A stretch of 64,000 nucleotides of DNA from Paramacrobiotus metropolitanus (GCF_019649055.1 NW_026570318.1:1-64000), one strand, 5' to 3'. Numbered from the stretch's first letter, positions 3,571 through 63,322 are shown. Numbers and translations: made by a program. Notes: generated from the letters alone by a model not told the origin.

Positions 3571-3577
3571 GTCTGGC

Positions 3578-4486: not shown

Positions 4487-4489
4487 TCC

Positions 4490-30594: not shown

Positions 30595-30987
30595 ATGTCG
30601 AACTCTCGAGAAAACGAGTACGCGAGAAAGTTCAACAAGGACTACTCTCGGCGTGCGAACATGACCGGAAAGTACTCACTTCGGTACGCCGGTCAGGACA
30701 CGAGTCAGCCGTCCTCAACCGACTCGACTAAGTCGGCCGAAGCAAAGGAGAGACGCAACGAACGGATCCTCCTTGCTGACTCGAATCCGACCTCGGACGA
30801 CAGTTTTGAGGACGCCAGGGATAAAACATTCCTGGACACCCAAGCTGACGTAGCAGCCCCGTCCCACCCGACAGGGGATGGAACAGCTGCAGGCAGAGAC
30901 CACATTGTCTCATGCCGACCAACAGTCGAGCTCACAAAGAGCTCAAGACTCGGTAACGGTCACAAAGACCACCGAGCTCGACCTTGA
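30595..30987 (+). CDS. Gag-like ORF A (N-terminal part)
   Basis: About 130 codons from the first ATG of the full-length RNA (context CAACAATGTC, as at ORF F). The product is polar and basic, Ser/Asp/Arg-rich, with no recognised domain. The frame ends at TGA 30985-30987 in the context CCT-TGA-C. The +1 frame (ORF B) overlaps it from 30854 and continues with coiled coil, so a +1 frame change or an independent start is needed to make a longer Gag. Two perfect ACAAA-loop hairpins (30928-30944 and 30958-30970) lie in the overlap. Confidence 0.6.
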   Translation: MSNSRENEYARKFNKDYSRRANMTGKYSLRYAGQDTSQPSSTDSTKSAEAKERRNERILLADSNPTSDDSFEDARDKTFLDTQADVAAPSHPTGDGTAAGRDHIVSCRPTVELTKSSRLGNGHKDHRARP

Positions 30988-31813
30988 CCGACTTCGAGCA
31001 AGATGCCATAAACTGATCACTCAGATCGTTTTGGCGGATAAAATCGTCGATTCGGCGGAAGGAACACTCCGGAACTCGGAGGATACCCATCGGCTGGAAC
31101 GCACCAGATGGGAACGCGACATGGCGGATGCTAACAAAGGCATCGCTCTCCAACAAAAGGAGATTGATCGGCTAACCGCCATATTGAAGCGAGCCGACCT
31201 ACCGTGCCGATACGAAGATGACCAAATCGCCATGCTTAACGGTAAGCTGGATCGGTCAACCGCGGCAGTCTTCGAGATCAAACACGAACTCGACGAGGCG
31301 AACAAAGCACTCGAAGAGACAAAGAAAGAACTGGCCGATGTACAAACAGCATTGGTCGAGTCGGAACAGGCAGCAGGTGCGTTCCACCAACAACTTAATC
31401 AGGCCAACGAGGAAGCCGAGGTCTATCGCAACGAAGTCGATAGATACGTAACCGAACTCAAGAAGGCCGATAACGAGATCGACCGACTGACACAACGAAA
31501 TGATGAGCTTGAGTCGGAGATGGAACTCCTCTTCACCAGGATGGGACGTCGGTTCATCGATGCGAACGCTCGGGACATGGGCTTTCCTAACCAAAAAGAC
31601 AGCCGACGTCGACCTGGTGGAAGCAAATGCCCAGCTAGCCGACCAGGTCTATGGACTGAATCAAGTCCTCAAGGAAGAACAGAAACTCCGAGCCCAACTG
31701 GAGTACAACCTGAACGAGGCTCAGAAGGTGAACGAGGCGCAACACAGCCGCATTCTTTACCTGGAGGCCCGCGAGGTCGAACTGTACGACTTCGGCGAAC
31801 AGGCAGCCCGTAA
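30878..31813 (+). CDS. Gag-like ORF B, coiled coil
   Basis: Opens at ATG 30878, overlapping ORF A in the +1 frame. Residues about 35-225 are strongly heptad-like, rich in Glu, Lys, Leu and Asp (LDRLRARCHKLITQI, DEANKALEETKKELADVQTA), predicting a long alpha-helical coiled coil, suitable for Gag multimerisation. After about nucleotide 31580 this frame loses protein character (Arg/Pro/Gly-rich), while the next +1 frame (ORF C) takes over the heptads. That marks a second frame change in mid-coil, not at the stop. Confidence 0.6.
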   Translation: MEQLQAETTLSHADQQSSSQRAQDSVTVTKTTELDLDRLRARCHKLITQIVLADKIVDSAEGTLRNSEDTHRLERTRWERDMADANKGIALQQKEIDRLTAILKRADLPCRYEDDQIAMLNGKLDRSTAAVFEIKHELDEANKALEETKKELADVQTALVESEQAAGAFHQQLNQANEEAEVYRNEVDRYVTELKKADNEIDRLTQRNDELESEMELLFTRMGRRFIDANARDMGFPNQKDSRRRPGGSKCPASRPGLWTESSPQGRTETPSPTGVQPERGSEGERGATQPHSLPGGPRGRTVRLRRTGSP

Positions 31814-34274
31814 CCTCACCGAAATGATGAGGCAAATGGACGAGATGGACACGGAAACACGGTGTCTAAGGGAGGAGAAGAAACACCTGGAACAAAGCCA
31901 GGTCGAACTTCTTTCATACCGGGAACAAAGCCGGGTGGAACCCCCCTCATACCGAACGTCCATGGTACAGGACCAACAACAGTCGCGAACAATAAGCGAC
32001 ATCCTGTGGGGAAACAACCCAGCCCAAGAGCTAGCGAAGAAGGAGAACAACACCTCCTACTTCGTTGGAGTCTTGACCGCCGACCCAAGTGTGGGGACAA
32101 TCCCACAACCACCACCCGTACCAAGTGCTCCGGAACCGGAACACAATACGTCGACCGCGGCACCACGAGTACCAACGTCGAATGTGGCGACAACGACGTC
32201 GGCCGGTGCATACACTAGCACTTCGTACGCGACGCGCACAACAATGTACGCGCCGGTACCTAACGCCAGAGGAGACCGGACAACGGACGCCGAACGTCTC
32301 CCAGCCCAGCCACTAAGACTTGGCATGGAAGCATACCGTCCACCACGGACGAACTCTAACCCAAACTTCCTCCGCCAGAATCCGCAGTTCGACTTTGAAC
32401 GCGGACGAGCTCGGTCATTCAACGTGGATGACCAGCGCCAGAACGGACAGAACGGGGAAGATAGCTCCGACCAACAAGGTCGAGCGCCTCCGAACCGACC
32501 TACACAAGGTCGGATGCCGGTTCAGGGAACACAGCCCAACCGGTATGGAAGAGTCTACGACCAACCGAGTGGATTCTATCCGCAGGCGCCGAGACAAAAT
32601 CGAGCGCCCCCTCCACAACAGTATGGAGGACAATCACAACAGCCTCGTTACGATGACCAGGCTCAAGCGCCGCATCCGCAACAGGACGGATACGACGATC
32701 AGTATGAACCAGCTCACCACCAGCAGGTATATGGGGACCAACAAGGTCATATGCCATATGCCAACCTGCCACCTGCCCCGGCCGTACAACAGGCTGAGCT
32801 GCTGGCACAACTGATCCCTCCGGCACAAGATCCGAAACATGTCGCGATAGTACGTGCCATTGCCCACGGACGTCGGCAACCTATGCCGTCGTTCGATGGC
32901 GACCATACCAAGCTACAGGGGTGGCTTAAACAAATTCGAAGCCTGCATCGTCAAGCCCAACAATGGTACGAGGACGATCAGACTTTTATGGCTGACTTGG
33001 TGGCCCAACTAGACGGCCAGGCGGAACACTGGCATACTCTCGAAGCCGCCGGAGAACCACTCGGCGGATGGCCAGTCAACGTATGGCTGACCAAATTCGA
33101 GCAGCAATTCGCCGACAAAAACAAAGAGGTGAACATGATATCTCGGATAAACAAACGGATATTTCGCTTTGGCGAAGAAACGCCCGAGCAGTATTACGAT
33201 GCCATGATGTTCATGAAGTCCCAAGTCCCCACGATGACCGACCAGATGATACTATATCATCTTAAGGAGAACATCCATGAACCTAAACTACGGGAAGCCC
33301 TGGAAATCAAGATGCCGGCGACGCCAATCGAGCTCCGCGACTACTTACGGAGCTTCGTCAACGGCAAGGAAATGTACGAGGTGCGCAAACAACGCGACGG
33401 CGACTATGCCAGAGTTCGGGCGGCAACACCTACGCCTGTCCCAGCTCCACCTCCGGCGATACCGCAACAGACCGGATATCAGCCACATATGATGCCGGGA
33501 TACCAAACTCCGACGGCACAGTACGGACAACTAAGTCCGGCGCCGACGCCACCGGTGCAACAGGCACCAGTCCAGCAACAGACCTGGGCAGGCGCGGCAG
33601 CAGCAAATCTGAATCCCCCGGCACCTGGAGTTGGAGCCCCCGTTAACAATTACGGCGGCCCAGGTTACAGCTCGGGCGTTAACCAAAACAACACAGGTTT
33701 TGGTTACGGACAGAACTTTAACCAGGGATACTCCGCATACGGACAGTATCCTCCACAAGGATACGGCGGCGGAGGCTATGGTCGCGGCAGAGGACGCGGC
33801 GGCGGGAATCGCGGCCGTGGGAACTTCCCTAACCGCGGCGGAGGCGGCGGCCCACAAGGCAACCGACCCCCCCAAGCACAACAAAGTGCTCGGCAGGCGT
33901 CGACGTACGTCGACAAGATGGAGGCAGCCTTCTTCCAGTGGACGAGGGACAAGACCTTCCGATGCAGGCACTGCATGTTCAACAATCATGACGAGTCGCG
34001 CTGCATATATGGCTCGGATAACAATCCGAACCTTCGGTGGTACGACGATTGGTACCGCCGATATTCGACAAATGGCCCAGTTGGCTCGGCTAACCCCTTT
34101 TGGAAGAATGTCGTGCCACCGCCGCGCCAACGCCAACAGGCAGGAGGCTCGGGTAGCCCCGGTAACGGAAACCGGTCACCCGGCCAGGGAATGGCGGAAA
34201 CCGCAACAATAGCGGCGGGAACCAACAAGGTTCCCCGGCATACAGAGAACCGTTGCCGCCCCGCCAGTCGCTGA
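31500..34274 (+). CDS. Gag-like ORF C: coiled-coil end, capsid, RGG box, CCHC knuckle
   Basis: 924-codon frame whose first 29 codons are a shadow of ORF B. From about residue 30 to 145 it continues the coiled coil. Residues about 200-440 are Pro/Gln/Tyr-rich and probably disordered. Residues about 450-640 (PSFDGDHTKLQGWLKQI, WPVNVWLTKFEQQFADK, ETPEQYYDAMMFMKSQ) match the helical capsid region of Ty3/gypsy Gag. An RGG/GGG-rich RNA-binding stretch lies at about 755-795. A C-x2-C-x4-H-x4-C knuckle (C822, C825, H830, C835) follows, as in nucleocapsid. Near 34190 the protein-like frame moves by -1 and runs to a TGA that overlaps the ORF D start as ATGA; the annotated frame ends at 34274. Confidence 0.75.
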   Translation: MMSLSRRWNSSSPGWDVGSSMRTLGTWAFLTKKTADVDLVEANAQLADQVYGLNQVLKEEQKLRAQLEYNLNEAQKVNEAQHSRILYLEAREVELYDFGEQAARNLTEMMRQMDEMDTETRCLREEKKHLEQSQVELLSYREQSRVEPPSYRTSMVQDQQQSRTISDILWGNNPAQELAKKENNTSYFVGVLTADPSVGTIPQPPPVPSAPEPEHNTSTAAPRVPTSNVATTTSAGAYTSTSYATRTTMYAPVPNARGDRTTDAERLPAQPLRLGMEAYRPPRTNSNPNFLRQNPQFDFERGRARSFNVDDQRQNGQNGEDSSDQQGRAPPNRPTQGRMPVQGTQPNRYGRVYDQPSGFYPQAPRQNRAPPPQQYGGQSQQPRYDDQAQAPHPQQDGYDDQYEPAHHQQVYGDQQGHMPYANLPPAPAVQQAELLAQLIPPAQDPKHVAIVRAIAHGRRQPMPSFDGDHTKLQGWLKQIRSLHRQAQQWYEDDQTFMADLVAQLDGQAEHWHTLEAAGEPLGGWPVNVWLTKFEQQFADKNKEVNMISRINKRIFRFGEETPEQYYDAMMFMKSQVPTMTDQMILYHLKENIHEPKLREALEIKMPATPIELRDYLRSFVNGKEMYEVRKQRDGDYARVRAATPTPVPAPPPAIPQQTGYQPHMMPGYQTPTAQYGQLSPAPTPPVQQAPVQQQTWAGAAAANLNPPAPGVGAPVNNYGGPGYSSGVNQNNTGFGYGQNFNQGYSAYGQYPPQGYGGGGYGRGRGRGGGNRGRGNFPNRGGGGGPQGNRPPQAQQSARQASTYVDKMEAAFFQWTRDKTFRCRHCMFNNHDESRCIYGSDNNPNLRWYDDWYRRYSTNGPVGSANPFWKNVVPPPRQRQQAGGSGSPGNGNRSPGQGMAETATIAAGTNKVPRHTENRCRPASR

Positions 34275-34335
34275 ACTCGACGCCACCCAACAATGGGCCG
34301 GCTCGGAGTAACTCCCCGGGAAACGCCCAAGGTCG

Positions 34336-37300
34336 ATGAGCTCCGGTGACTCATTAGACCTCCAACATCCGACCGAACCACCGGACAAGGATAATCCCAC
34401 TAACCAGCCGCTCACTCCCCGGAACGAACCGAACTTTGATCCGTTACAAAAACGGATAGCAACGGTCCTAAACACATTAGGACTGGACTGGAGCAGTTGC
34501 ACGGAGGAAGAACTCCTCACGGCACTGTCCGCCCCCACAAAGGAGGCGACGGCCGCCCGAAAGATGGCAGCCGAACTCGGAATCTTCATCGACAACGGTG
34601 AAATCGAGATCCGGACCGGAACACAAGAAATGGCCGGTCAAAACGACCCAGCGCACCGACAAGACGCTGGAACGACAAAAGCCAAGGAAGGCCAGCAACA
34701 GATAGACACTATACTTCAGTTACTCGGACTGAACGAAAACAGTTCCGAGGAGGACTTCGCAAAAGCGATGTCGACCCCCACAAAGGAGGTAGAGACGGCT
34801 CGGAAGTTAGCCGCTCAGCTCGATGTGTACGCCAACAACGGCACCGTCGAAGCCCGGCCCGGGATGCAACAAGCACTCGAGGCAACCGACCCAGTGCCTC
34901 GACTTGGCGCTGGAACGTCGGAGGTCGGAACGCAGGAATTGCCCGACCTAAGCAGCGCAAACAATGCGACTGCGCCGTCCGTCACACAAAGTGACGTTAC
35001 ACGGCTTGGCCACGGAAGTTGGACCGGATTGCCGGTGAGGATAAACCCAACCGAGCAGCCCAGACGAGGCCCAAGACGTGGAGGACCGGGACGCCGATCC
35101 ACGCACCGGGGCAACAGAAACTTCCCCGATGTATCATCCGCCCGTACAACGGATAGATACGCTGCAACAATGGCAGCCATCGACCTCACCGAAGAATCGG
35201 AAGGAGAAGTCGAAGAATGGGAAACAGTCCCATTGGAAGCACAGGTACCCGTTTACTCTCGGCCGGGAGAAGCGGACCTCTTCCAACGAAAAGAGCAACC
35301 AGCTAGAACGGTAGCCGGTTCTCGAACATTCCTCAACCTCGACTATATGTGGTCAAAACTGAGGCCAACGGACGCCAAAGTGGAGGAATGTAAACGAACG
35401 CAGGTACAACGGTTCGGAACCGCCGAAATACCGAAGGACGGAGTCATGAACCGACCTGAGGTACAAGAAGTGGTTGAAGTCGGAGTCGAACCTACACAAG
35501 GTTCAACTCAACAGCTAACCGACCCCGGACCGGTGTCGCTAATCCCCATCAAACCAACGGTGCGGGAAGTAACCTTTGAAAAAGGAACACACAAGAAACC
35601 GAAGACAGTTCGAGCTTGGACACACGAAATCCAAGTCGGATCCACGCCCACATTGGCGATGTTGGATACCGGAGCGGAGACTTCGCTCATCGAACAACGG
35701 TTTTGCGAGAGGAATGGTTTAACGATACAACCCCTCGGACACTACACCAAAATACTCGGTGTAGGCGGACAAGTCGCTTTCATAGTGTCTCATTGCTGTA
35801 CGGTACCTGTAACAATGCAGGGCTATACTAGCCATCACACTTTCCACGTCCAGCCGACCGAAGCGGACATCCCAGTGCTACTCGGATGCGACTACCTGCA
35901 TTCGAAGTTCACCTTCATTTTGACGCCGATTCCAACCCCGGAACAGCCAGGAGGAACGGTAGTGCAGTCTATCCCGATACCAGAGGCATCGGACACGGTA
36001 GGAAACGAAGTTCGGATTAGTCGGCTTGATCACCCGGCGAACTCCACACGTAATATCTGCCGCGATTGCCGGGATACGAACCGCACTCTGCTGGAGGAAT
36101 TAGCACTCCATAACGTCATAGAGCACTATCAGAAACGGATACGCGACGGTATACTACGACCGGCTAGGACCGTACTGAAGTCTATCCCGATACCAGAGGC
36201 ACCCGCCGATGCGGAAGCCCAGAGCCGAGAGGAAGTACGACAAAAGTACCGAACTTGGTTCTCGGGAGTTCGACATTTTCTCGACCAACGGACGTCGGAA
36301 ATGGCGATCACTCTGCAACAGAACGGAGCGATAACCCCCGACCAGATACTGGAAGCACAACAAAGGTGCGAACCAGTAATCGCCCTCATAAACGATAAAG
36401 AGGACGAAGCATGGGAATGGGAAGACGAACGAATTCCGATCCATCGACAGTATATGGAATACGGACTTCCTGTCCCACGGCCTTTGGAAATGCCATGCCA
36501 AGAACTGGGCTCGCAACTTTTCGCCTACATGCAGCGAGTACGATCGCACGGAGAATCGTCGACGACTGCATTTTGGCAACGGTACGGCGAGGACACCGCT
36601 ATAACGCGACGAGTCCCCGAACCGTTACCGCCACCTATGCCGCACACTCCAACCAACGTGACGTTTGTGAGTAGCCCGGCGAGACCCCAGGAAAATGTAA
36701 TCCTGGACGAAACCGATAAACCCTATCGGTGTGCTATCTGTCAAGACAATATTGACGAGGTAGTACGAGCAATAAAGGCTCACCACGACCTAACTTGGTC
36801 GGACGACAGACCGTCGTCACCGTCGCCTCCGCAACAGGAACGGAAGGTCGATCGTTTTCGGAAGCCCCAACAGTCGAGCATCCGATGGCTGAGCAACACA
36901 AGCCCCCAGCCAACCGACCTTGAGAATCAGGACGGAGTAAGTCGACCAACCCAACCGACGGATAAGGCCGACCAAGCTGAACCGACCACACAGGTCGAAG
37001 TCGGCAACATGCCAGAAGTCGAACCTGAAAACGGATCGGAAGTCGAATTCGAAGATTACCAGTCGGACGACTCGGACATACAAAGTACGAGTGATTCGGC
37101 GGACACAGACTCCGATAACCGACCTTCGGAAGAATCCGAGGAAGAGGACGACGAAGAATTCGACCTGTCAGTCCGACACTGCAAGACGGATAAACCGAGC
37201 ATAAACGACTCGGACGATTCGTCATCGGAGGACGAAGAACCGACCTACGATGTCCGACTAACCACAGCATTGCGAACTATAGTTCACACAGAACTTATAG

Positions 37301-38061
37301 TCGAGCAACCGGAACAAACCGAACAACCTAAGCCGGTCGACTCCGAACAACAGGAGGAACTCGACCAACTTAAGGCTTTGCGGGAATTCGGAGGAGGTAA
37401 ACCGGAGGAAGACGATCTCCGACCTCCAACTATCGTCATCCAGCAGTTGTCAACCGAACAACCGACCTTGGCTAACTTAACCGACCAACAGAAGTCGGAG
37501 CATTTCAACACATGGAAGGCACGAATCGCCAAAGTCACGACGATTGAAGAGCTGAACCTGGACAACAAATGCCCAGAAGTTCACCACTTAAAGCTGGATC
37601 CTTACGTGGAGACGAAAGCGCTAGACCGACAAGTTGTCTTTAACAGCGAACGAGTCTCCCTCCCACCATGGTCAACATGTTCGATCAAAGTACGGACGGC
37701 CAAACCAATGGACCCGAGAAGAAGAATCTACTTCTCTACCCTACAGCGGGTAGTCCGACCTATCCGGCCAATTGAAGCCAAGATCGACATCCGACCTACC
37801 AACGACACGGCTTGGATAAACATCCAGAATACGACCCACCAAACGAAGGTGCTAAAGAAGGGCGTACGACTTGGTCATATGCAATATGCCGATGTCTATG
37901 AACCGGAGATCAACAATGAATTTGTCGAATGGGAACTCCCACACAAAGTGGCGAAGACTTGGCCCCCGACTAGGGAAGTGAAGCCAAAACCCCAATTCGA
38001 AGTTTTCGAGGCAACAGGAGTTCGAGCCCAACGGAAGGTCAAACTCATCCTCGAGCCGTAA
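34336..38061 (+). CDS. Protease-containing ORF D (1241 aa)
   Basis: Starts at an ATG overlapping a stop in the preceding gag-like frame (ATGA). Residues about 39-95 and 123-174 are a tandem duplication (L-x-x-L-G-L ... S-x-P-T-K-E ... A-R-K-x-A-A). A retroviral-type aspartic protease occupies about 430-535: catalytic LDTGAE (D444), then VLLGCDYL as the second conserved block. A putative zinc site C-x2-C-x13-H-H sits at about 799-817. A highly acidic Asp/Ser/Glu region covers about 880-1010. The C-terminal 130 residues look like a beta-rich pre-RT spacer (LKKGVRLGHMQY). The frame ends in TAA two bases before the pol ATG. The protease would cleave Gag and Pol; the acidic insert is unusual. Confidence 0.8.
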   Translation: MSSGDSLDLQHPTEPPDKDNPTNQPLTPRNEPNFDPLQKRIATVLNTLGLDWSSCTEEELLTALSAPTKEATAARKMAAELGIFIDNGEIEIRTGTQEMAGQNDPAHRQDAGTTKAKEGQQQIDTILQLLGLNENSSEEDFAKAMSTPTKEVETARKLAAQLDVYANNGTVEARPGMQQALEATDPVPRLGAGTSEVGTQELPDLSSANNATAPSVTQSDVTRLGHGSWTGLPVRINPTEQPRRGPRRGGPGRRSTHRGNRNFPDVSSARTTDRYAATMAAIDLTEESEGEVEEWETVPLEAQVPVYSRPGEADLFQRKEQPARTVAGSRTFLNLDYMWSKLRPTDAKVEECKRTQVQRFGTAEIPKDGVMNRPEVQEVVEVGVEPTQGSTQQLTDPGPVSLIPIKPTVREVTFEKGTHKKPKTVRAWTHEIQVGSTPTLAMLDTGAETSLIEQRFCERNGLTIQPLGHYTKILGVGGQVAFIVSHCCTVPVTMQGYTSHHTFHVQPTEADIPVLLGCDYLHSKFTFILTPIPTPEQPGGTVVQSIPIPEASDTVGNEVRISRLDHPANSTRNICRDCRDTNRTLLEELALHNVIEHYQKRIRDGILRPARTVLKSIPIPEAPADAEAQSREEVRQKYRTWFSGVRHFLDQRTSEMAITLQQNGAITPDQILEAQQRCEPVIALINDKEDEAWEWEDERIPIHRQYMEYGLPVPRPLEMPCQELGSQLFAYMQRVRSHGESSTTAFWQRYGEDTAITRRVPEPLPPPMPHTPTNVTFVSSPARPQENVILDETDKPYRCAICQDNIDEVVRAIKAHHDLTWSDDRPSSPSPPQQERKVDRFRKPQQSSIRWLSNTSPQPTDLENQDGVSRPTQPTDKADQAEPTTQVEVGNMPEVEPENGSEVEFEDYQSDDSDIQSTSDSADTDSDNRPSEESEEEDDEEFDLSVRHCKTDKPSINDSDDSSSEDEEPTYDVRLTTALRTIVHTELIVEQPEQTEQPKPVDSEQQEELDQLKALREFGGGKPEEDDLRPPTIVIQQLSTEQPTLANLTDQQKSEHFNTWKARIAKVTTIEELNLDNKCPEVHHLKLDPYVETKALDRQVVFNSERVSLPPWSTCSIKVRTAKPMDPRRRIYFSTLQRVVRPIRPIEAKIDIRPTNDTAWINIQNTTHQTKVLKKGVRLGHMQYADVYEPEINNEFVEWELPHKVAKTWPPTREVKPKPQFEVFEATGVRAQRKVKLILEP

Positions 38062-38063
38062 CA

Positions 38064-46720: not shown

Positions 46721-47840
46721 CGTCGAACTCCCATACGTCGACAACGCGGTCGACCAGAAGGAAGTTGACATCGGCGAAGTCGAGAATCAGTACCGAGAAG
46801 CGGTCGATGTCATGGAAAAGCTCGGAAAACAACTCCGAGAACTCGACCCGAACAACCCCATGGAAAGACGAATGCGCGATGCCTTGGATCAGCAGTACAG
46901 TATCTGCTCCAGGCGGGTCGAGGATTTGTGGAAAATCTTAGAAGCTAACCCACAAAGGGTTCAGCCGACCCCTCCGCAACAACCGCCTCAGCCCACATTG
47001 GCCGAGCAACGCGAAGCTCTTGACGAAAAGTTGGCTCGCACACGGAGGATTGCCGAGAGCTTGCAACGTCAAGTCGATTACATGGACGGAACAGATCCGA
47101 CCATCCGTAACATTCGGACGGCAATTGAAGACCAAATCCGAGTCTCCCAGATGCACATTCAAGACGTGCAAGTCGACCTCGAAATCTTACGGCAGAAGGA
47201 ACTCGAAGAATTCCGGAAGGAACAACGTGCATCCGGGTCACAACAGCTGACCACTTCGAGCCAGCCGACTTCGACAACAGCTCGGAAACAACCTCAGCCG
47301 ACCTCAACAGTAGGACCGGCTCAACCGAAACCAATGGAAATGCCCGACCGACCCATGTCTCCGGCGACAGAAGCTCGGATCATGGAAGCCATACCGGATA
47401 CCGGCGAATTGGCAAGTACGGTTGCACCTTATATCGTTAAATTACTGGAGAGGGTAGCCGAACTCATCACGGAGATGAGGGCCCGCAGAAACTTCTGCGT
47501 CGATAACAGCCAGGAAGCGAACGACCTGGATCGAGACATCCTAGCTTGGGGAAACAACGCCCGGTTCATACGACGACTTTGTCACCCGGACGCCCCACAA
47601 ACGACTAGGGCTCGACAACACCTTATTCGAACTATCTCGTGGCTGGATACAAGGGTGAACGAGTACGAGGAAGAGAAGGAACGGGACAAGGAGCAGGAAT
47701 CGACCAACTTGGCAACAAAAGCCATGGCAGAAGGTCGGCCGTCTCGGATCACAAAGATCCAGTCGGCTCGAAACCGAATTTTGACTCTGTCCGACTTCCA
47801 CCTCCAGCCCCACCAGCCAAACCCGACCTTGAATGGATAA
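46599..47840 (+). CDS. Accessory ORF G: helical-repeat protein, middle part
   Basis: Open in the +1 frame relative to ORF F; the nominal start is TTG, so an independent start is doubtful. Before about 46715 it is a shadow of ORF F; after that it becomes protein-like and carries three more helical units (YREAVDVMEKLGKQLRELD; LARTRRIAESLQRQVDYMDG; VAELITEMRARRNF) separated by Pro/Thr/Gln-rich linkers. The protein-like reading then moves to the frame of ORF H near 47750. ORF G is best understood as the middle segment of one long coding region, reached by a +1 frame change at the ORF F stop or broken by an indel in this copy. Confidence 0.6.
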   Translation: MKLCSRWLTMSNSTWQTRTKRERQYQLGRENLPQSHQFGLDVELPYVDNAVDQKEVDIGEVENQYREAVDVMEKLGKQLRELDPNNPMERRMRDALDQQYSICSRRVEDLWKILEANPQRVQPTPPQQPPQPTLAEQREALDEKLARTRRIAESLQRQVDYMDGTDPTIRNIRTAIEDQIRVSQMHIQDVQVDLEILRQKELEEFRKEQRASGSQQLTTSSQPTSTTARKQPQPTSTVGPAQPKPMEMPDRPMSPATEARIMEAIPDTGELASTVAPYIVKLLERVAELITEMRARRNFCVDNSQEANDLDRDILAWGNNARFIRRLCHPDAPQTTRARQHLIRTISWLDTRVNEYEEEKERDKEQESTNLATKAMAEGRPSRITKIQSARNRILTLSDFHLQPHQPNPTLNG

Positions 47841-50800: not shown

Positions 50801-52411
50801 ACGACTAACGCAGAACGCGATGTGCCAGTACGGTATACCGTGCCAAACTTCATACCGGAACAACATCGGCGTGAATCTAACCTCCGGATGTCTTATGTCA
50901 ACACAGACAGGCCTCCGGCTGGTACGGAACCGACCGAAGAGTACAGTGACTCCAACGAACAACCGTCGGAGGACGCAGCCGCCATGTTGCACATAGCTCG
51001 AACGGCTGCACAATCGTCACAAAAACGAGTCCAAGTCTTAACCCGACCCCGAGCACCGCACGAACCGACAACATATGTCGGTACGGCAGCAGCCCCAGCG
51101 GGACGAGCAAGCACCGCCAAACCAACTCGGAGTGCAAAAGGACGGTTTATACCAAGGGACGTACAGTCACTCCCGCCGCCCTCGCCTATGGAAGTTTCGC
51201 CGGAACCGGAAGACTTGACCCAACAGAAGGGAAAGTCGAAGTCGACCAGGACGAAGTCGACTAAGCCGGCTAAGAAGAAGGAACCGAAGTCATCTGAGCT
51301 GATCTCGTCGTCTGAGGAAGAAACCGACAACGATGATGACGACGACGAAGATTTCCAAACACCTGGGAACGGGTCACCAAAGGACGACGACGATGACGAC
51401 GATGGGAATGGTAAACCTCCACCACCATCAAACTCGGCACCTCAACAGCAGGGCGAACCGGAGATACCGGACAAACAATCCGAAGAAAAGGATAGCGGTG
51501 ACAAAGCCGACGATCCTAAAGGCAACGGGGATGAGGGTGGAGTATACATCCCTCGTAAGTACGGCCAACGGATATCACTGACGCCCGACTCCGAGCCACT
51601 TCGCTCGGACTTTCATGAAGATATGATAGAAGTCCTACCAGACGACATTCCCCCACTGGTCAACGTTAGGTTGAAGTATACCGGCATTAAATCGGCTTCG
51701 AAACCTAAGCCGAGTGTCTCAGAATATGACGCGGGATGGATGTACACATTCGCCGCTTTGAAGGCCTTGGCTACACGTGGACCGAAGTTCGCCACACCAA
51801 GAATCGCCTTCAAACTCCTCCAACACTGGAAGGTAGATGAGACGGGCGACTGGAGACAGCTAAGTCAGAACAACGTACGCCATTACTGTGACCTGGGATA
51901 CCACGCAGGGAAAATAATACGTACATACACCAGCGGAAAGCGGATGTACTACGAGTTCCCACCGGCTAAAAGAGACCCGGCACCTTCAACATATGAAGGA
52001 TGGATACACGCCATTGAAGCGTGCATGGGAATGTCTTGGCATCCGGAAGGATTAACCCGCGGAGAAATTCTCCACCAACTCATAGCACGGTTTGAGTTTG
52101 AATGGAAGACGGCGGAACCGCAACTAGTCGACCCTAAGTATAAGGCTAAACCAGACCCGACCGCCGGACGGAAGAAATACTCCCTGGAAGACGACTTAGA
52201 GTTCGTCCTGGAAAAAGGGCTTGCCCAACAACGGTTCGCCACAAATACCGATAAAATCCAGGGTGGTCAACGGTTCATCGCCTTAAATCCATCAACTCAC
52301 CGTTATGGACATTTACCGAAGGAACGATCGACCTCGGCACAAGTGACCGAGCTGGCTGACTCGCACCAAGCAGGTCGGCCAGAGTCGACGGAGGCACCTA
52401 CTCGGGAATGA
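47639..52411 (+). CDS. Accessory ORF H: last part of the giant protein (1590 aa)
   Basis: Opens at GTG 47639 inside ORF G and becomes protein-like from about 47750. It first carries one more helical unit (LEWIKAVNTQLLRADAVIVE ... FVDDFYKRKEAEEQ), then long Lys/Pro/Ser/Thr-rich disordered segments. A compact helical domain lies at about 893-1058 (VETLIRTVRVHVEVVRSI ... RIGERIALLVEQH). An Asp-run acidic stretch lies at about 1226-1258, and a second globular domain at about 1303-1558 (GWMYTFAALKALATRGPKFA; DGRKKYSL-type basic end). Neither domain is recognised. The basic and acidic disordered regions suggest nucleic-acid binding. Codon use and CGAC-rich composition match the rest of the element, so it is not a recent capture. 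Confidence 0.7.
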   Translation: MAGYKGERVRGREGTGQGAGIDQLGNKSHGRRSAVSDHKDPVGSKPNFDSVRLPPPAPPAKPDLEWIKAVNTQLLRADAVIVELRKMMDETDQQSPQYCQIDINLGHLENNTKEARFILRPTTVWSAKNQERLQTLTAMIQSFVDDFYKRKEAEEQRKLKRPPSAKKPKVQPVKPTQKVSPVGHQDDPMGDVPVPGLEGEDELMDTSEEVGTTEVNRPKPLERPSTLPGLTQREPQSERIEDHGPRRRLFPTKSPSPVRTKEQLLEILKATPSNLPPAEEKPSPSRKVMGAKALFTPAVHKKLVGQAKTLDLQRILYEAQLQGGIRDRTMTEEQQTQMARKIHATIQDRDKVLRRLVTLRCGKQELRQLPLDSTMIQTIQRLRNPSINPGAYTLEIQPRPGEEVTEKIPITMSDSSEEEENADNNDSDDSTKQKAAAPSKGSTPKRGRSPVKQISPTRSASQPTKLPSQPPIEKPLRFSPRNTPTKPKKTQEEMDTTSPSEARVETTVVASPQRDEPTSIHSGPRLTIDESRTNESANESVNIPTKRSTVKEKPPQDSSREFHDDLALQHEKDLTRSEQDACIDMAYPEDRELWHSLRIRRASIVGNTTEARRDHDRLTEKMADVMKRMGEHYRAEKSRPKALQVATPTQHKATAPEPKSTKKTAQQPVNMKVPPPTRQPSVQIDDDFDARVINSANSAKSHKDKRKAKKEAAIQSAKPQPTETQKKPVKSEAKEPAKPKSDSTVKTPKPNPAKRHKSSDDLDISDAGPQRTEQREKAQQPPDKEAVERKFKEVMERTGTKPAKTSGGRLRKPPTPTEKPQPSTSKQQSDVESDLISDIEEKDSISDHGEGDPYEGFKGDLKEMFDHGADTDESQWPAPDDVRERLPDEQPDDPVETLIRTVRVHVEVVRSIRNAKENGTDIYQSLVRDLSNNIQAGGETGTWLTHQLMMQIVAWTLDFGLAVAVHRQWGRMAELLPPDLIKSLKSAAARNADDTPTRIARCIGYIRNPRGSTLVQIARVYNVMYMDKKGNIDEIIKYRIGERIALLVEQHTLQTTNAERDVPVRYTVPNFIPEQHRRESNLRMSYVNTDRPPAGTEPTEEYSDSNEQPSEDAAAMLHIARTAAQSSQKRVQVLTRPRAPHEPTTYVGTAAAPAGRASTAKPTRSAKGRFIPRDVQSLPPPSPMEVSPEPEDLTQQKGKSKSTRTKSTKPAKKKEPKSSELISSSEEETDNDDDDDEDFQTPGNGSPKDDDDDDDGNGKPPPPSNSAPQQQGEPEIPDKQSEEKDSGDKADDPKGNGDEGGVYIPRKYGQRISLTPDSEPLRSDFHEDMIEVLPDDIPPLVNVRLKYTGIKSASKPKPSVSEYDAGWMYTFAALKALATRGPKFATPRIAFKLLQHWKVDETGDWRQLSQNNVRHYCDLGYHAGKIIRTYTSGKRMYYEFPPAKRDPAPSTYEGWIHAIEACMGMSWHPEGLTRGEILHQLIARFEFEWKTAEPQLVDPKYKAKPDPTAGRKKYSLEDDLEFVLEKGLAQQRFATNTDKIQGGQRFIALNPSTHRYGHLPKERSTSAQVTELADSHQAGRPESTEAPTRE

Positions 52412-52628
52412 GGAAACGCAGAAAGCGTTAGAGGAGTGGCATAACCGACCTTCCTTCATTGACACCACATAGGCGTCACCGACCAACAGAAGTCGACCTA
52501 CCTCATTAGACGACCACAAAGGCGTCTCGGACCAGCTCGAGAACCGACCTGGCCCGACCGTAGTAACTATAGGGTGTAGATTTATAGGATGCAACCGAGA
52601 AACGGTTTGCTTACTTTTGTTTTGACAG
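52412..52628 (+). promoter_or_regulatory. ORF H/ORF I intergenic region with splice acceptor
   Basis: Contains ATAGGGTGTA near 52569 and a strong pyrimidine tract (TTTGCTTACTTTTGTTTTGACAG) ending at 52628. The TTGACAG end matches the acceptor at 42265. ACA-loop hairpins occur at 52465-52481 and 52503-52520. Confidence 0.6.
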
Positions 52629-54809
52629 AACCGAACGGAAGCTTACACGGTGGACTGCCGACAGTGCAGGAATAACGCGACACGGGATAACAACAGGTTG
52701 CCATGTGCGGAATGCATCGTGTCCTTCACCAACGAACGGGTCACTGGTACCGGAGCACAGATGCGAGCTCAGGCAGCGGCACTTTACATTAATGTTGTCG
52801 CTGGAAACCTGAGTGCATACCGGTACATAGCCCGAAACGAGACTCTGGTGGACCAGCTGCAAGCTCACGAACAGGATAATTTGGCCACCATTCACCGCCA
52901 ACGAAGCGACGACCCAAGATGGGAAGGAACTGTACCACCAGTCTTAACAGATAGACTGTGGGTGTATAGACAGGCGCAAGACGTACACCGCCAATTGGAG
53001 GACCAAAAGAGACTTAGGGAGGTTGACAAACGAATTGCCTCGATGAAGGTCCATCCTCCACCGACCGACTATGAACCGGAAATCAAAATTCGGTTACCGG
53101 CACCCACACAGGGTCGCTCGGATAGCGAACAGTTGATCCATGATGTACGTGACGTCTTTGTCGGAGACCCAAACCGACCATTGACGAGCGCATCGGTCAC
53201 CATGATGATGAACATGCCGGATGGAACCCAACAGCCGGTTACCCTCACACCGGCGACTCAGGAACAGTTGATGGCAATCCCACACAGGGCAACGCCAGTG
53301 GTCACACAGGCCCGTCCAACTGTTTCTCAGCAGATCCCCCAACACGGAACTCGGACTTATTCGGCGGGTCAACAGCAGCAGCGCCGACCTAGCAAAAACT
53401 TAGCGGGACACGACCTTCGGCATAGAATTGGTCCGGTTGATCTTCGAGACAGAATCGAAGAGCAACGGGCCGTAATCCGACAAGCTGGAAAAGAGCCAAC
53501 CAGAGCTCCACCAGGAAAACGGACTGGATCCGGAGAAACGGGAATCGGACTTACGGTCGACTTAACAAATAAGTCGAAACGTAATTTTGTCCCACCTGAA
53601 CAGCAGCCGGAAGCTCAACAAGTGGAACCGGCGGCCGAAGTCCAAGCAGAACCAGCAGCTCAACAAGAGCAGATGGACGTCGAAGTGGCCGACCAGATGG
53701 CACAACTACCACATGTAGAAGTGCCGGCTCGAGAAGATCCTCGTTACGACCAAGCCCGACAGCAGGGAATCGAAGTCGTCATGCCACATCCGACCGAGCG
53801 AACGAACCACATCATGAACGTCATGAATTACGAGGAACGGTACCGACCACAAATCTGGCGGATGGTAGAAAACCTTCGTCAGTTCCTCGTCCGATCCGGA
53901 TATCAGACGCTGTTCGAGCAACACCAGTGGCAGGCCGACTTCAACATGAATGCGCACACAGCACAGAATGTCGAACATCCGTATGTCAGATCGAACGCGT
54001 TACCGTCGATGACCGACCCGGTCTTGCTGAATGTACCATTGTACAGCCCGGACGGAACACGTGCGAGCCAACTAGGAGCTCGGGAATACTCCCATGACGA
54101 GTTGGAGAGTGTTGCACAGTTCGTCATCACGGACGCCCACCCAGCCTTTGTAATTACCGCGGCTCGGGCAGCACTGGACTTAACCCAGTATCTCCCAGAA
54201 GGGGAGATCGACATCGCCCAGGACGGAGTCGCGGCATTCCTGCGATTCATCTTCGCAGCACGACTTGGCAATTACTTTTGCCATTACACCTTGTACGGAC
54301 TGTACCAAAACGAGATGATACCAGCGGCCTTGGAAACCCTCGTAGCCCAACTTGGCACACCGATGAGAAGTGTTATCCTCGCCGTCTGGATGCGCGACTT
54401 GCTGTATACCCACGAACGGTATGCGACAAAGTATGCCTTTCGTGAGGATCACGTAGATCCCAGCGATGACGCGACTCGGTTGATCAGCTGGTACCGCGAG
54501 AAGAAGACTTTGCCTAGTGGATTCAACTCGTCACCCTACGAACCTTGGATGTCGGACGACATTGCACCCGGTGCACAACCATATGCGCTGAGGCTCCGTA
54601 AACAAGCGGCCAAGGAATCGAGGAAGGGCAAAGCAGACCGCTCCGGCCAGGAGACGGACGAGACCGACGAGACGTCTCAACGGAGTGGCCCGGCAACTTG
54701 CAGACCCAAGGATCCAAACATCCGGCCACATGACCGACCTCGCCCGGACGACGAAGAAGATGAAGACTACTTCGGCGGCGACAAACCCGTCGAAGTCCCA
54801 CTCAGTTGA
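52629..54809 (+). CDS. Accessory ORF I: zinc-motif protein without its own ATG (about 726 codons)
   Basis: Frame open from the splice acceptor at 52628/52629 in phase 0. It begins with a C-x2-C-x12-C-x2-C motif (DCRQC ... PCAEC), located before the first in-frame ATG (about 38 codons after GTG 52650). The first ATG of any frame after the acceptor (52703) is out of frame. The start codon must therefore come from an upstream exon, or the Cys motif is not translated. Residues about 60-360 are polar, Gln/Pro-rich; about 385-640 form a helical globular region (RPQIWRMVENLRQFLVRSGY; GVAAFLRFIFAARLGNYF); the tail is acidic. No family recognised, no signal peptide. It ends at TGA 54809, followed by an 8-bp hairpin. 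Confidence 0.65.
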   Translation, partial: NRTEAYTVDCRQCRNNATRDNNRLPCAECIVSFTNERVTGTGAQMRAQAAALYINVVAGNLSAYRYIARNETLVDQLQAHEQDNLATIHRQRSDDPRWEGTVPPVLTDRLWVYRQAQDVHRQLEDQKRLREVDKRIASMKVHPPPTDYEPEIKIRLPAPTQGRSDSEQLIHDVRDVFVGDPNRPLTSASVTMMMNMPDGTQQPVTLTPATQEQLMAIPHRATPVVTQARPTVSQQIPQHGTRTYSAGQQQQRRPSKNLAGHDLRHRIGPVDLRDRIEEQRAVIRQAGKEPTRAPPGKRTGSGETGIGLTVDLTNKSKRNFVPPEQQPEAQQVEPAAEVQAEPAAQQEQMDVEVADQMAQLPHVEVPAREDPRYDQARQQGIEVVMPHPTERTNHIMNVMNYEERYRPQIWRMVENLRQFLVRSGYQTLFEQHQWQADFNMNAHTAQNVEHPYVRSNALPSMTDPVLLNVPLYSPDGTRASQLGAREYSHDELESVAQFVITDAHPAFVITAARAALDLTQYLPEGEIDIAQDGVAAFLRFIFAARLGNYFCHYTLYGLYQNEMIPAALETLVAQLGTPMRSVILAVWMRDLLYTHERYATKYAFREDHVDPSDDATRLISWYREKKTLPSGFNSSPYEPWMSDDIAPGAQPYALRLRKQAAKESRKGKADRSGQETDETDETSQRSGPATCRPKDPNIRPHDRPRPDDEEDEDYFGGDKPVEVPLS

Positions 54810-57800
54810 GATCGAGTTCCCACATTGGAACTCGGTCCCCCACTTGGAACAGCCGAGGGGACTCAACGCCGAGAAACGGCATGGTCGAGAATCGACCTGA
54901 CTGAGAAACAGTCTAGCTGAGAAACAGCACCGTCGAGAAACGACTTCGGAATGGACATTTTTCTTCAGTTCTTTTCACAGAAATCGACCAACCATGTACG
55001 CGGCGGACGTCAACGACGACTTTGCCAGAAAGCTGACTACACAAGTCAGCCGGATTCTTCGGTTTGACCCGGACACGAGTGGTTAGACCTGACAAGCCGG
55101 CTTCTTCCACCGTTCCGGTACGTCTTCCGAGGAATCCCCTGGATAGAACTGAGCAACCGACCTCAGTTCCCCGGTAAGGCATATCTGCTAACATAGCAGA
55201 TCGTCAACCACGTTCTGCGACCATCGGAGCCAACAGAAGCCCCAACCCGCGTTACATGGAGCCGACCGATAGTTACATGGTACAGATCACGCCATTAACT
55301 ACGACCGGCTAGGAAGATTACTCCGGCCAACCGACTCCGGAGCATAGACCGAGAGGATTACGCTAACATGGCGCTGAATACGTCGCTGCGTGTTCACCGC
55401 CATGTTTGCCGAGCACCCGTGGCCAACCTCGGAACCGGGTAGCCGAGCAGCCTTCACCAGTGTAAGACGCGGAAATCCCTCGGCCGAATGCCAACAGTGC
55501 AGGAACACTCGGATTTCTCTTTACGTACTCAAGCCGACCACAAAGGTCGACTTTGTACTTCGCCCATAACTTGGAGACATTACGGACACAGCTGCGTCAG
55601 CCGACCACACAGGCCGGTTGTGCAAACCGACCACACAGGTCGGCTTTGGAAACGATAGCCAGAACGACTACAGGAAATCCATATCATGGCCGACCACACA
55701 GGTCGACCATGGCGACCAACAAGAGTCGACCAAGAAGAATGGACGGAAGCCAGGAGTGGTTACGTGGCAACTTCACCGGATTCTCCGGTTGAACCCAGAC
55801 CTACAGGAACTCAACTAGGAACCTGTACCCGGAGTCCAACCGAAGTCTCCCCCGGAGGATATCGGGTAAACCAGCCGATTCACCGGTGACCACGACTACG
55901 CGCGTCTTGAACGTGCAGCCATTACCTGAAGAGGAACAGCGACGGTGATTTGGCCACCATACCAACGACTCCGCCGCGACCTGCTTCCCCATGTCTCCAA
56001 TGGAACATCCTAGGCAGATCGGATTAGAACATCCGACCTGCACCCCTTCACCGAACCCCGCTGGCGACGACCGCCTGCCCGAACACCAACGGCCAGTCGG
56101 CCTTCGTCAGCGGCAGAGGAACCTTCCCCGATGACGACGACCACTTGCCCGCAACAGTACCGGCCAATTGGCCAGCGTTATCGGCAAAGAAAAATTTCCC
56201 CGCGGACGTGAGTGGCCTACCCCCAACAGAAGCGGCTAGGCGTCTCAGGTTCACGGCACAACAAAACGGAAGAATCAGATCTGACGACCTCAGGGACTTG
56301 CATGTGCATGAGGTTTAAACAGCTCGTCAACTGGGGCCACAAAGACCCTATGTTGTAGGCGAGCATACTTGCATGATGAAGTCACTCGGCCAACAGACGC
56401 CGGAAGAAATTGTGACCGCGCGGGATTCGGCCGCCCACAGGACCAGCCGACAGTAGCTCGGATCCGACCCAGAGTTCTTGTTAGGAATTACAGGAAGAAC
56501 GGAGTTGTGCTGCCGAACATCCTTCTGCCAGTCCAACACTGACCGAAGGATGTCCGAACAACGGGGACCCGGTCAACTGTAGCCGGACGCACAGGACTCC
56601 TGACAGAAGGTCGACTTGATGAACGCCGACTAGCCCCACATTGGGCGTAACGGTATAAGTCGCCTTAACCGACCTCAAAACGCAGATCGGAAGTGACCTA
56701 ACAGAGGTCGGAAGCACACGATAACAAGTCGGAAAGAGTGATCGGAAGTTGGAAACCGACCTTCCAGCGGAAAAATTTAGCTTTTTGGCGGGTGAACACA
56801 AAGTTCATCCGACCTTGAGGAAGTCAGACATAGCCGACCTTGGATGACGCATAACCGACCCCGAATGGAAGTCGGTAGTCACCGGATAGAAGTCGGAAGG
56901 ATGCCACAACAAGTCGGCAAAGGCGTTTTGAGGCTGAGAACCGACCTTCCAACGGAAGAATCCGACCTTCGGACGGACGAACACACAGTTCATCCGACCT
57001 TCCGAAGCCAACCATAACCGACTATAAGTCGGAAGTCGGAAACTCAGTCAATACGACGGAAGAAGAGTGACAGCTGTCTGCGGTGGACGAATTCGACTTG
57101 AAGGAACTTGTTTAGCCCCACATGGGCATGTTATTACAGGTTAACCATAGTCGACCACCGACGGATAGGATGACCGACCTTGACTACAGGTCGGATGGGA
57201 TTGCCGACCTCGACAGAAGGTCGGATAACAACGGAACATATTGGACGGAAGTCGACTTGACACTTCCGCCGAAGAAACCTATGATTTCCGATCGGACCTT
57301 CGAGCCAGTTCGACTCGGATTACTCCAAACCAGGCTCGTGGTAGCAGATTGAACGGTTGTAACCGACCACTTTCGAACGGAACTGCTGTACATGACGACC
57401 ACACAGGCCGCATGATTTACATACAGCTTTTTCCGACCTGAACTTCAGGAATTCGGGACATAGCCGAATTTCCCCAGCCGCCGGTCGACTTACCGGTAGG
57501 CCGACCTTGGTCAAAACCGACCTCGGTCCTATTCCCCATTCAGAGAGGATGCTTCGGCATTTGCAACTGCAACAGTGCCTCTCTATCCCTGACGGACGGA
57601 CACGGGTCGGAAGTAAGTGTTTAACCGTGCTTATCCGACCTCGGTGAGTGTAACCGGTCACGACGGGTAACTCGGGAACTGATGCCCCGGACCCAACTTA
57701 CCGGATGAAAAGTGGACAGGAGACCCCGTGGAGACTCAACTGCCCCGTGGACGTCATCCTAGTCGGAATAGGACCCCCGGACAGATTTTTGCATTTTTTT

Positions 57801-58231
57801 TTAGCATTTCTCCTAACAAACGGAATTGTATTTTTCTAGTTAGATCTCTTTAACAGATCTGTTTTGTAACCCCTTTTGCTCACTGGAATTGTGATTAAAC
57901 TTTATTTCATACTTTCTTTCGCGCTGCATAAACTTTCATTACATTTTCTTTCACATTGTTCTCCGATGCCAACAGAAGCAAGAAGCCAGCCAACAGAAGC
58001 ATCACCGGTCCAACGAAACGCCCGAGCGGCTTCCGGATTTTTCGGCCGTGAGTGGTTTCCACTCATGGGTTCGGAAGTGAAGAAGGGACGGTCGACCAGA
58101 CACCGGACTCCCACTGCCAGAGGACGCGTACCAGCGACCCCACATTGGGTCCGACTGGAGAGTTGTGCGGTACTGGTGCGGTACTGAGTCGGAGCATCCT
58201 TCGCAGGAGCTCGGATTCCCGCCCAGAGGCA
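54810..58231 (+). other. 3' non-coding region of the giant element, hairpin-rich
   Basis: 3.4 kb without a supported ORF. It is full of CCGACC/GTCGG words and contains the longest ACA-loop hairpins (54813-54834, 55531-55553, 55627-55643, 55686-55710, 56791-56809, 58137-58152). A diverged tandem duplication covers about 56740-56850 and 56935-57030 (CCGACCTTCCA-CGGA ... ACAGTTCATCCGACC). A T-rich block lies at 57785-57960. Immediately before the 3' LTR there is no good polypurine tract. Confidence 0.65.
55531..55710 (+). repeat. Cluster of three or more long ACA-loop hairpins
   Basis: 55531-55553 has nine arm positions with one C-A mismatch around ACAAA. 55627-55643 is a 6-bp perfect stem CCGACC/GGTCGG around ACACA. 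55686-55710 has ten arm positions with one C-A mismatch around ACACA. A fourth imperfect one lies at 55600-55620. This is the densest cluster in the element. Confidence 0.75.
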
Positions 58232-58665: not shown

Positions 58666-58669
58666 GTAT

Positions 58670-63320: not shown

Positions 63321-63322
63321 GG

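Follow-up and report, generated by a model that had tools for sequence, protein, structure and literature searches.

The tardigrade Paramacrobiotus metropolitanus has a giant Ty3/gypsy retrotransposon, with long terminal repeats (LTRs), whose sense strand is scattered with small hairpins that combine varied stems with loops that contain ACA. The element covers 28863..58665 (+), or 29.8 kb, of a 64,000-nucleotide stretch of the genome (GCF_019649055.1 NW_026570318.1:1-64000), which we call the window. There are 65 ACA-containing hairpins on the sense strand of the element, as compared to 7.6 ± 2.7 in dinucleotide shuffles, and this excess is confirmed as real. Comparisons with other copies indicate that selection acts on the nucleic acid of the hairpins, because motif stems are spared at four-fold degenerate sites across groups of copies. 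This appears to be a selected system that would operate at the level of RNA or, less likely, of complementary DNA (cDNA). On balance, we think that the hairpins are many-copy recognition sites for a protein of the element, likely the nucleocapsid part of Gag, and that they would serve packaging or self-recognition.

Hairpins across the element

We scanned 28863-58665 for Watson-Crick stems of at least 5 bp with loops of 4-7 nt, with no loop chosen beforehand, and compared the counts to 150 local dinucleotide shuffles for the sense strand and 100 shuffles for the minus strand. The sense strand has 186 hairpins of any kind (88.7 ± 9.7 expected), and ACA is the most enriched trinucleotide in the loops. 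A sequence-only reading of the window had described hairpins with ACAAA, ACACA, AACAA, or CACATT loops, always in the sense orientation, and had proposed scanning against shuffled, codon-shuffled, and antisense controls; the excess stands against all of these, in the sense orientation only. Loops of those four kinds occur 32 times (0.84 ± 0.81 expected), while the minus strand has 3 ACA loops (2.0 expected) and none of the four kinds (0.13 expected). With other block sizes and with Markov models of order 3 and 5, 7.7-8.7 ACA hairpins are expected, and the maximum is 18.

The same reading argued that the hairpins lie in different codon phases and are not explained by protein repeats, and we agree. 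The loops that it quoted at 34986, 46952, and 50036 have the phases it gave, and ACA uses all three phases in the coding hairpins (20/13/18). The coding part has 51 ACA hairpins, as compared to 6.8 ± 2.6 in 150 synonymous shuffles (maximum 13) and 5.8 expected if the order of the codons is permuted. Another 3 lie in the 5' untranslated region (0.44 expected), 9 in the 3' region (0.81 expected), and none in the LTR (0.09 expected); with junctions excluded, the regions sum to 63 of the 65. The host flanks within the window have no excess on the sense strand (5 versus 7.4 and 1 versus 1.0 expected).

The hairpins extend from 29521 to 58151, so the array begins earlier than the 30896 first given for it. 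They are not limited to the starts of open reading frames (ORFs) or to the 3' region. Their density is reduced in 47840-54809 (6 in 6.7 kb), and we found no regular spacing (coefficient of variation 0.87, inside the 95% range of 0.81-1.22 for uniform placement). If mismatched pairs and loops of 4-8 nt are allowed, the count rises to 135 (24.8 ± 4.7 expected), or about 110 sites above chance. Five-base loops are conspicuous: there are 69 of these (21.4 expected), with A first in 52, A last in 48, C or G second in 47, and a C-G closing pair in 31. When folded locally as RNA, in about 120 nt of context, 79 sense ACA hairpins have a mean pair probability of 0.84, as compared to 0.75 for the minus strand, 0.59 for 144 non-ACA hairpins, and 0.50 for 397 shuffled hairpins. 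Rfam gave no matches at the gathering score in 28800-58700.

The ACA hairpins from the main scan are given below as coordinates, strand, loop, and stem length. Those from 31885..31903 through 41328..41343 were also followed in genomic copies, and "two-sided" marks a change of both bases of a pair there.

29521..29538, +, CACATT, 6 bp
29926..29943, +, GACAGT, 6 bp; overlaps a second one at 29936-29952
30896..30911, +, CACATT, 5 bp
30928..30944, +, ACAAA, 6 bp
31147..31163, +, AACAAAA, 5 bp
31885..31903, +, AACAAAG, 6 bp
32090..32107, +, GACAAT, 6 bp
32468..32482, +, AACAA, 5 bp
32495..32513, +, ACACA, 7 bp
33554..33568, +, AACAG, 5 bp
33680..33706, +, AACACAG, 10 bp; two-sided in copies
33746..33764, +, CCACA, 7 bp; two-sided, one copy
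33875..33890, +, AACAAA, 5 bp; two-sided, one copy
34014..34029, +, AACA, 6 bp
34217..34235, +, AACAA, 7 bp
34439..34457, +, ACAAA, 7 bp
34465..34483, +, ACACA, 7 bp
34980..34996, +, ACAAA, 6 bp
35161..35177, +, AACAATG, 5 bp; stem intact in 13/13 aligned copies
35216..35234, +, AACAG, 7 bp; two-sided, one copy
35488..35504, +, ACACA, 6 bp; two-sided changes in copies
36740..36756, +, GACAATA, 5 bp
36983..36997, +, ACACA, 5 bp
37281..37295, +, ACACA, 5 bp; two-sided, one copy
37736..37753, +, TACAGC, 6 bp
38839..38853, +, GAACA, 5 bp
38866..38884, +, TAACACC, 6 bp
40174..40188, +, CACAA, 5 bp
40191..40211, +, AACACTA, 7 bp
40759..40775, +, CATACAC, 5 bp
41087..41100, +, ACAT, 5 bp
41328..41343, +, GACAAG, 5 bp
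42133..42149, +, TAACAGT, 5 bp
42666..42679, +, ACAA, 5 bp
43104..43118, +, ACACA, 5 bp
43447..43462, +, ACATAC, 5 bp
43790..43805, +, AGCACA, 5 bp
44089..44103, +, CACAA, 5 bp
44320..44335, +, GAACAA, 5 bp
44865..44881, +, ACATA, 6 bp
44910..44924, +, ACAGA, 5 bp
45522..45538, +, ACATA, 6 bp
45825..45843, +, TACAACT, 6 bp
46272..46286, +, ACAGA, 5 bp
46821..46839, +, AAACAAC, 6 bp
46947..46961, +, ACAAA, 5 bp
47236..47252, +, CAACAGC, 5 bp
47746..47760, +, ACAAA, 5 bp
49255..49272, +, TAACAT, 6 bp
50031..50045, +, ACAAA, 5 bp
51064..51082, +, ACATA, 7 bp
51983..51999, +, ACATA, 6 bp
53441..53461, +, GACAGAA, 7 bp
53557..53577, +, ACAAA, 8 bp
54813..54834, +, CACATT, 8 bp
55032..55050, +, ACACA, 7 bp
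55535..55549, +, ACAAA, 5 bp
55627..55643, +, ACACA, 6 bp
55691..55705, +, ACACA, 5 bp
56695..56709, +, AACAG, 5 bp
56793..56807, +, ACAAA, 5 bp
57204..57224, +, CGACAGA, 7 bp
57450..57470, +, GACATAG, 7 bp
58136..58151, +, CACATT, 5 bp

The element also has an internal duplication (56666-56838 and 56852-57022, 72% identity). A 9-pair ACA hairpin is kept in both halves, with a single G.T defect in one and a single C.A defect in the other.

Selection, turnover, and loop preference in genomic copies

The host genome (169.8 Mb) has 97 matches to the reverse transcriptase (RT) of the element, the window itself included (95 of 1674 candidates scored), and the long matches have 78-100% amino-acid identity. 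From 26 copies we analysed 20 stretches of 10 kb, which run from Gag to RT, together with six stretches of 7 kb. Family A comprises 15 of the 10-kb stretches (L009-L023), within which L017, L018, and L021 form group A2 and L019, L020, L022, and L023 form group A3; L001-L008 were excluded from the analysis. Copies were compared over the 7 kb upstream of RT, while the test of four-fold sites against the window used window positions 31700-41600. About half of L016 is unaligned: it is included in the ACA counts and in the control-pair and window-referenced four-fold tests and is left out of the tests of pair conservation, covariation, turnover, all-reference divergence, and loop classes. For divergence by loop class, the group printed as A2+A3 contains the A3 copies only.

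All of family A is rich in ACA hairpins, with 10-30 per 10 kb (2.0-3.5 expected). The fewest are in L023 (10) and L016 (13), and both of these align only in part. Between the window and L009-L016, 25 of 463 four-fold sites in ACA stems have changed (5.4%), as compared to 88 of 595 in non-ACA stems (14.8%) and 1687 of 10122 outside (16.7%). For whole ACA hairpins, the divergence at four-fold sites is.070, versus.159 in a circular-shift control that reached this value in 0 of 500 shifts. If every copy is used as the reference, motif stems diverge less than their surroundings in all six groups (A.092 versus.182; A2.198 versus.266; A3.113 versus.186; B1.023 versus.127; B2.061 versus.118; C.062 versus.144). 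Stems with other loops diverge about as much as the outside in A (.181 versus.182), B1 (.132 versus.127), B2 (.109 versus.118), and C (.133 versus.144) and are intermediate in A3 (.154 versus.186). From these figures, a dependence of selection on the loop seems clear in A, B1, and C and is not seen in A2. The sequence-only reading had asked whether pairing is preserved among copies, and it is: in six of six groups, the pairs of motif stems change less than Watson-Crick pairs that occur by chance at equal spacing. Hairpin feasibility by back-translation of distant protein homologues was uninformative (3 of 18 changed cases versus 3.8 expected).

Variation among stems had also been read as compensatory change. 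This reading needed other copies, because stems that differ within a single element do not amount to covariation. The copies do have such a series, with the ACACA loop constant and the stem varied (gaacct...aggttc, gaactt...aagttc, gaactc...gagttc). We counted each pair column once in groups A, A2, A3, B1, and C (B2 was excluded), and as the copies are related, the p-values are rough. Two-sided Watson-Crick changes are enriched in A (14 of 93 variable columns, versus 6.7% in the control; p = 0.004) and in C (4 of 35, versus 3.6%; p = 0.04) and are not enriched in B1 (0 of 18), A3 (5 of 58; p = 0.18), or A2 (4 of 70; p = 0.63). So we view compensatory change as moderate support for the hairpins.

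Individual hairpins come and go. The window has 23 of 25 hairpin places in common with L009 (97% identical in the upstream part), 17 of 25 with L013 (89%), 4 of 21 alignable places with L018 (76%), and 3 of 18 with L020 (75%). Yet their own numbers are 25 in the window, 26 in L009, 27 in L013, 19 in L018, and 16 in L020, where 2-4 are expected. Single sites thus seem to be dispensable while the number stays above chance. The pace of turnover differs, because L024 and L025 of B (79% identical) keep 8 of 15 places.

Upstream of RT, subfamilies A, B, and C barely align with each other (no more than 1.8 kb out of 7 kb, at about 70%), and their hairpins favor different loops. In seven sequences of A, there are 11-27 ACA loops per 7 kb (2.0-3.8 expected); in six copies of B, there are 6-8 CAAYA loops (0.0-0.3 expected); and in five copies of C, there are 6-10 AACC loops (0.6-0.8 expected), along with other CAA loops. 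On the minus strand these words occur 0-3 times per copy. In B1, CAA-type stems are nearly frozen (2/162, 1/51, and 1/111 changed, or.009-.02), and the divergence of ACA stems is like that of the background (15/105, or.143, versus.127 outside). In A, the constrained classes are ACA (.099), CAACAG-type (.044), and AGA (.019), and the rest are at.225 versus.181. The picture in C is less orderly: AACC is at.108, other CAA at.046, AGA at.075, and ACA at.022, against a background of.145. Stems with other loops number 21.6 per copy in A (16.8 by chance), 26.8 in B1 (23.7), 24.5 in B2 (23.3), 29.8 in A3 (17.5), and 25.2 in C (18.3). Judging from these copies, the preferred loops differ between subfamilies, with some overlap: ACA in A, CAATA or CAACA in B, and AACC or CAA in C. 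These differences would fit recognition by a reader that changes.

Possible readers of the hairpins

A shared loop preference, free stem sequences, spread along the whole RNA, and restriction to the sense strand lead us to suggest that a protein reads many sites on its own RNA. Each site would be a short stem without mismatches, free in its sequence, that shows an A-rich loop of the preferred type; in family A this loop would contain ACA, with A mostly at both ends and C or G second if the loop has five bases. The reader would be an RNA-binding protein encoded by the element, most likely the Gag nucleocapsid, which has an RGG stretch and one CCHC knuckle:

31500..34274, +, Gag frame; the capsid-like part begins at 32886 and the RGG stretch at 33771
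33963..34004, +, Gag CX2CX4HX4C zinc knuckle, the candidate hairpin reader; subfamilies A, B, and C all have copies with it

The capsid-like part has a weak match to DUF4939 (E = 0.017), below the cut-off. An NPNxRWYxDW-like stretch comes after the knuckle in copies of all three subfamilies, even though their upstream DNA barely aligns. In yeast Ty3, according to the available text of one study, packaging needs the nucleocapsid and its zinc finger (PMC4974528). Under this mechanism, the 30-kb RNA would be loaded with Gag along its length and so labelled could be distinguished from host RNA and from the RNAs of rival subfamilies, whose preferred loops differ. Individual sites would be dispensable and would come and go, with the total kept well above chance. 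Three parts of this mechanism are inferred: reading of the RNA and not of the cDNA strand, Gag as the reader, and packaging or self-recognition as the purpose. More tentatively, rival subfamilies in one genome might tag their RNAs over the whole length with a loop password (ACA; CAATA or CAACA; AACC or CAA) that is read by the matching Gag. If so, the passwords would be a code for self versus non-self RNA that evolves by turnover of sites, as transcription-factor sites do, and would also help to bring a 30-kb RNA into particles.

Several observations weigh against this explanation. First, the loop is not everything. In A2, stems with other loops are spared like ACA stems (.183 versus.198, with.266 outside); with L023 as the reference, ACA stems are not spared (.176 versus.173); and the remaining stems in the two copies of B2 are low too (5/83, or.060 versus.117). 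Compared to control pairs, stems with other loops are somewhat conserved as well, and in A2 they equal the motif stems (.801 versus.797). Constraint extends to AGA stems in A, A3, and C, and ACA stems in C are conserved (4/181) though hardly in excess (4.2 versus 2.4 per copy). Second, the loop words overlap: of the 26 CAAYA loops in B1, 12 are CAACA or CAACAGAA and so contain ACA, as do 5 of 18 in B2, and in A the CAAYA class has 22 loops, of which 21 are of the CAACAG type with ACA inside. CAATA and CAATTA belong to B alone. Third, of the five groups compared, three have no enrichment of two-sided changes. Fourth, sense RNA helices should tolerate G.U better, and the lack of a G.U preference counts against reading the hairpins as RNA. 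Single defects in the window element are A.C more often than G.U (22 versus 7 in 6-bp stems and 20 versus 2 in 7-bp stems), and over five groups G.U makes up 89 of 193 column marks (46%), near the control of 43%. Fifth, L010, L011, and L017 carry another knuckle type and yet have ACA loops. Their knuckle is unlike that of most of their own group, which suggests recombination between subgroups. A link between knuckle type and loop inside subfamily A was considered and rejected, as the loop lists have no clear split. Finally, according to the available text of a study of yeast Ty3, most of the internal sequence of that element is dispensable in cis (PMC4974528).

The same RNA sites could have a different reader, such as the product of an accessory ORF or a host protein that acts in export, stability, or translation. 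All of the RNA-level evidence fits this equally, the element carries many ORFs on one strand, and its large accessory ORFs have relatives in P. metropolitanus and lack a family match above the cut-off. On the other hand, a single host reader should give one loop to all subfamilies, and the preferences differ, nor are the hairpins confined to ORF starts or the 3' region. We consider another reader unlikely, if still worth serious thought.

Perhaps the hairpins act instead in minus-strand cDNA during reverse transcription, as protein-binding sites or second-strand start sites with a TGT loop. The surplus of A.C defects, which are G.T on the minus strand, would then make sense, and so would two A.C defects within one 7-bp stem (4 versus 0.74 expected) and the G.U share in the stems of A3, which is below the control (.25 versus.43). 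However, two A.C defects never share a 6-bp stem (1.6 expected), and one-sided changes in the controls are already more often A.C than G.U (3146 versus 2066). The G.U share is.46 in A,.40 in A2,.73 in B1,.38 in B2, and.57 in C, with controls at.38-.50; it is at or above the control in A, A2, B1, and C. We no longer take the A.C surplus as a firm sign of minus-strand function, as control pairs in other copies have a similar lean and the groups disagree. Because G.U is not clearly favored over A.C, we argue for the strand from the one-sided loop motif and the coding orientation, and a role in cDNA seems improbable to us.

General selection for a folded genome, that is, genome-scale ordered RNA structure with the loop motif as a by-product, we rate lower still. 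It has something in its favor: an unrelated Ty3/gypsy element of about 8.6 kb in the same genome (C45) is rich in hairpins without the loop motif, which also counts against our preferred explanation, and in A2 the non-ACA stems are spared as well. C45 has 75 hairpins with loops of 3-5 nt (24 expected, both LTRs counted) and no shared loop; it was scanned over its whole length in separate pieces (L038 3449-6000, L036, and L039 1-2575). Three stretches from unrelated Ty3/gypsy elements of this genome have 26, 36, and 16 hairpins (15.2, 15.0, and 13.5 expected), the first from C36, the second from C45 itself, and the last from C67, and their 4, 3, and 1 ACA loops are matched by 5, 4, and 0 on the minus strand. 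So hairpin richness may be wider among the LTR elements of this genome. The preferred loop is seen in the giant family only, and the other elements are single copies with hairpin counts alone. What speaks against general folding is that, in A, B1, B2, and C, the divergence of stems with other loops is close to that of the outside, and that the number of such stems is near chance in A, B1, and B2, though less so in A3 and C. The LTRs of C45 are 99.7% identical over 303 bp.

A mutational by-product, in which fold-back or template switching by reverse transcriptase writes short palindromes that then drift, would likewise give perfect stems and steady numbers with turnover. We find this very improbable: in each of the six groups, motif stems change less than control pairs do, and silent sites are spared according to the loop in A and B1. 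Furthermore, stems in L009-L016 break mostly by a single base (41 of 60 cases, with 34 further cells gapped) and not by replacement of a block, and in comparisons with the relatives P0001, P0002, and P0121 the protein sequence encoded under ACA hairpins does not diverge more than the rest, though with P0003 it diverges slightly more (.411 versus.468). Lastly, the sense strand is A-rich and T-poor, which favors A-rich loops on one strand, but an artefact of composition or codon usage is refuted by dinucleotide, third- and fifth-order Markov, synonymous, and codon-order controls, which never reach the observed count.

The element and its relation to known systems

The element is a Ty3/gypsy LTR retrotransposon. 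Its LTRs are 99.5% identical over 434 bp by self-blastn, it has TG...CA ends (TGTCAG...GTTACA), and it is flanked by a 4-bp target-site duplication (GTAT at 28859-28862 and again at 58666-58669). Its domain order by Pfam (protease, RT, RNase H, integrase) is that of Ty3/gypsy (Metaviridae), and it has many ORFs on one strand. Besides the Gag frame, its parts are:

28863..58665, +, whole LTR element; LTRs by self-blastn, flanks read directly
28863..29295, +, 5' LTR by self-blastn; zero sense ACA hairpins with a perfect stem of at least 5 bp
34336..38061, +, ORF with retroviral-type aspartic protease at 35629-35901 (Pfam PF13975, 3.5e-7)
38064..42098, +, ORF with RT, RNase H, and integrase (Pfam)
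42275..46720, +, accessory ORF, 1481 aa; a single relative among 8000 scored candidates, from P. metropolitanus
47639..52411, +, accessory ORF, 1590 aa; relatives P0121 and P0122, both from P. metropolitanus
52650..54809, +, accessory ORF, 719 aa, without a Pfam match
58232..58665, +, 3' LTR by self-blastn

Directly after the 5' LTR, TGGTAGCAGA (29296-29305) would fit a putative initiator-tRNA-Met primer site. The RT-RNase H match spans 1335 nt, versus 1383 nt in the nearest copies (48 nt shorter). The RT proteins closest to that of the element are from P. metropolitanus, and a search of viral_contigs did not find relatives of the element. The frames of the accessory ORFs that were scanned gave no Pfam matches above the cut-off. 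The last part of the 1590-aa ORF (51386-52408) is well conserved in P0121 and P0122; by eye, we presume a resemblance to winged-helix domains, and a predicted structure (predicted local distance difference test score, or pLDDT, of 35) was discarded.

The host DNA in the window has two long imperfect palindromes (5036-5623 and 63316-63934, with alignments of 592 and 564 bp at 80-84%) that are related to each other and are probably a foldback-type repeat. There is also a tandem array of a 51-bp repeat at 5720-6323.

In the titles and opening parts of abstracts from searches on hairpin arrays or packaging in retrotransposons, on giant tardigrade elements, and on the host, we found no published report of such an array, which does not prove that none exists. 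A parallel in size is Burro of planarians, which is also a giant Ty3/gypsy-like element, about 30 kb in total with an internal part of over 20 kb. The polyprotein of Burro has 4,873 aa and includes MATH, BIR, ankyrin, and BCL2-like parts, and the available text does not mention a hairpin array (PMC6431247). Pfam found no MATH, BIR, ankyrin, or BCL2 matches in the frames of our element that were scanned. Like our element, yeast Ty3 (Metaviridae) has LTRs and retroviral-type enzymes, and its Gag carries a single CCHC knuckle. Unlike Ty3, our element is several times larger and has accessory ORFs; in the available text, dispersed hairpins are not described for Ty3, and its nucleotides 429-4979 are dispensable in cis if the proteins are supplied (PMC4974528).

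The Psi signals of retroviruses are, in the parts of the papers available, RNA structures that are recognized by Gag (PMC8096270, PMC11449360), while in our case Gag is a candidate only. Psi maps mainly near the 5' end, in the leader, by the available account (PMC2951377), whereas our hairpins are spread from 29521 to 58151 and are mostly coding (51, with 9 in the 3' region and 3 in the 5' untranslated region).

There is also a resemblance to the dispersed packaging signals that have been proposed for single-stranded RNA viruses such as MS2 by Twarock, Stockley, and colleagues, in which, going by the accessible part of the account, many stem-loops across the genome have a short motif in common (PMC6281560). 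Our hairpins likewise have variable stems with a shared loop motif, and selection appears to act at the nucleotide level, with a dependence on the loop that is not seen in A2. Unlike MS2, the host of these signals is an LTR retrotransposon with 65 perfect ACA hairpins (135 by the looser scan) per element, which are known from sequence alone, and the preferred loops vary between subfamilies inside one genome. This gives a natural system in which each genome has tens of sites that turn over, related elements have three different loop preferences, and selection at silent sites seems to depend on the loop in the best-sampled groups. It hints at a way in which a retrotransposon of 30 kb may manage its RNA, and it allows a direct test of whether a retroelement marks its own RNA with many labels.

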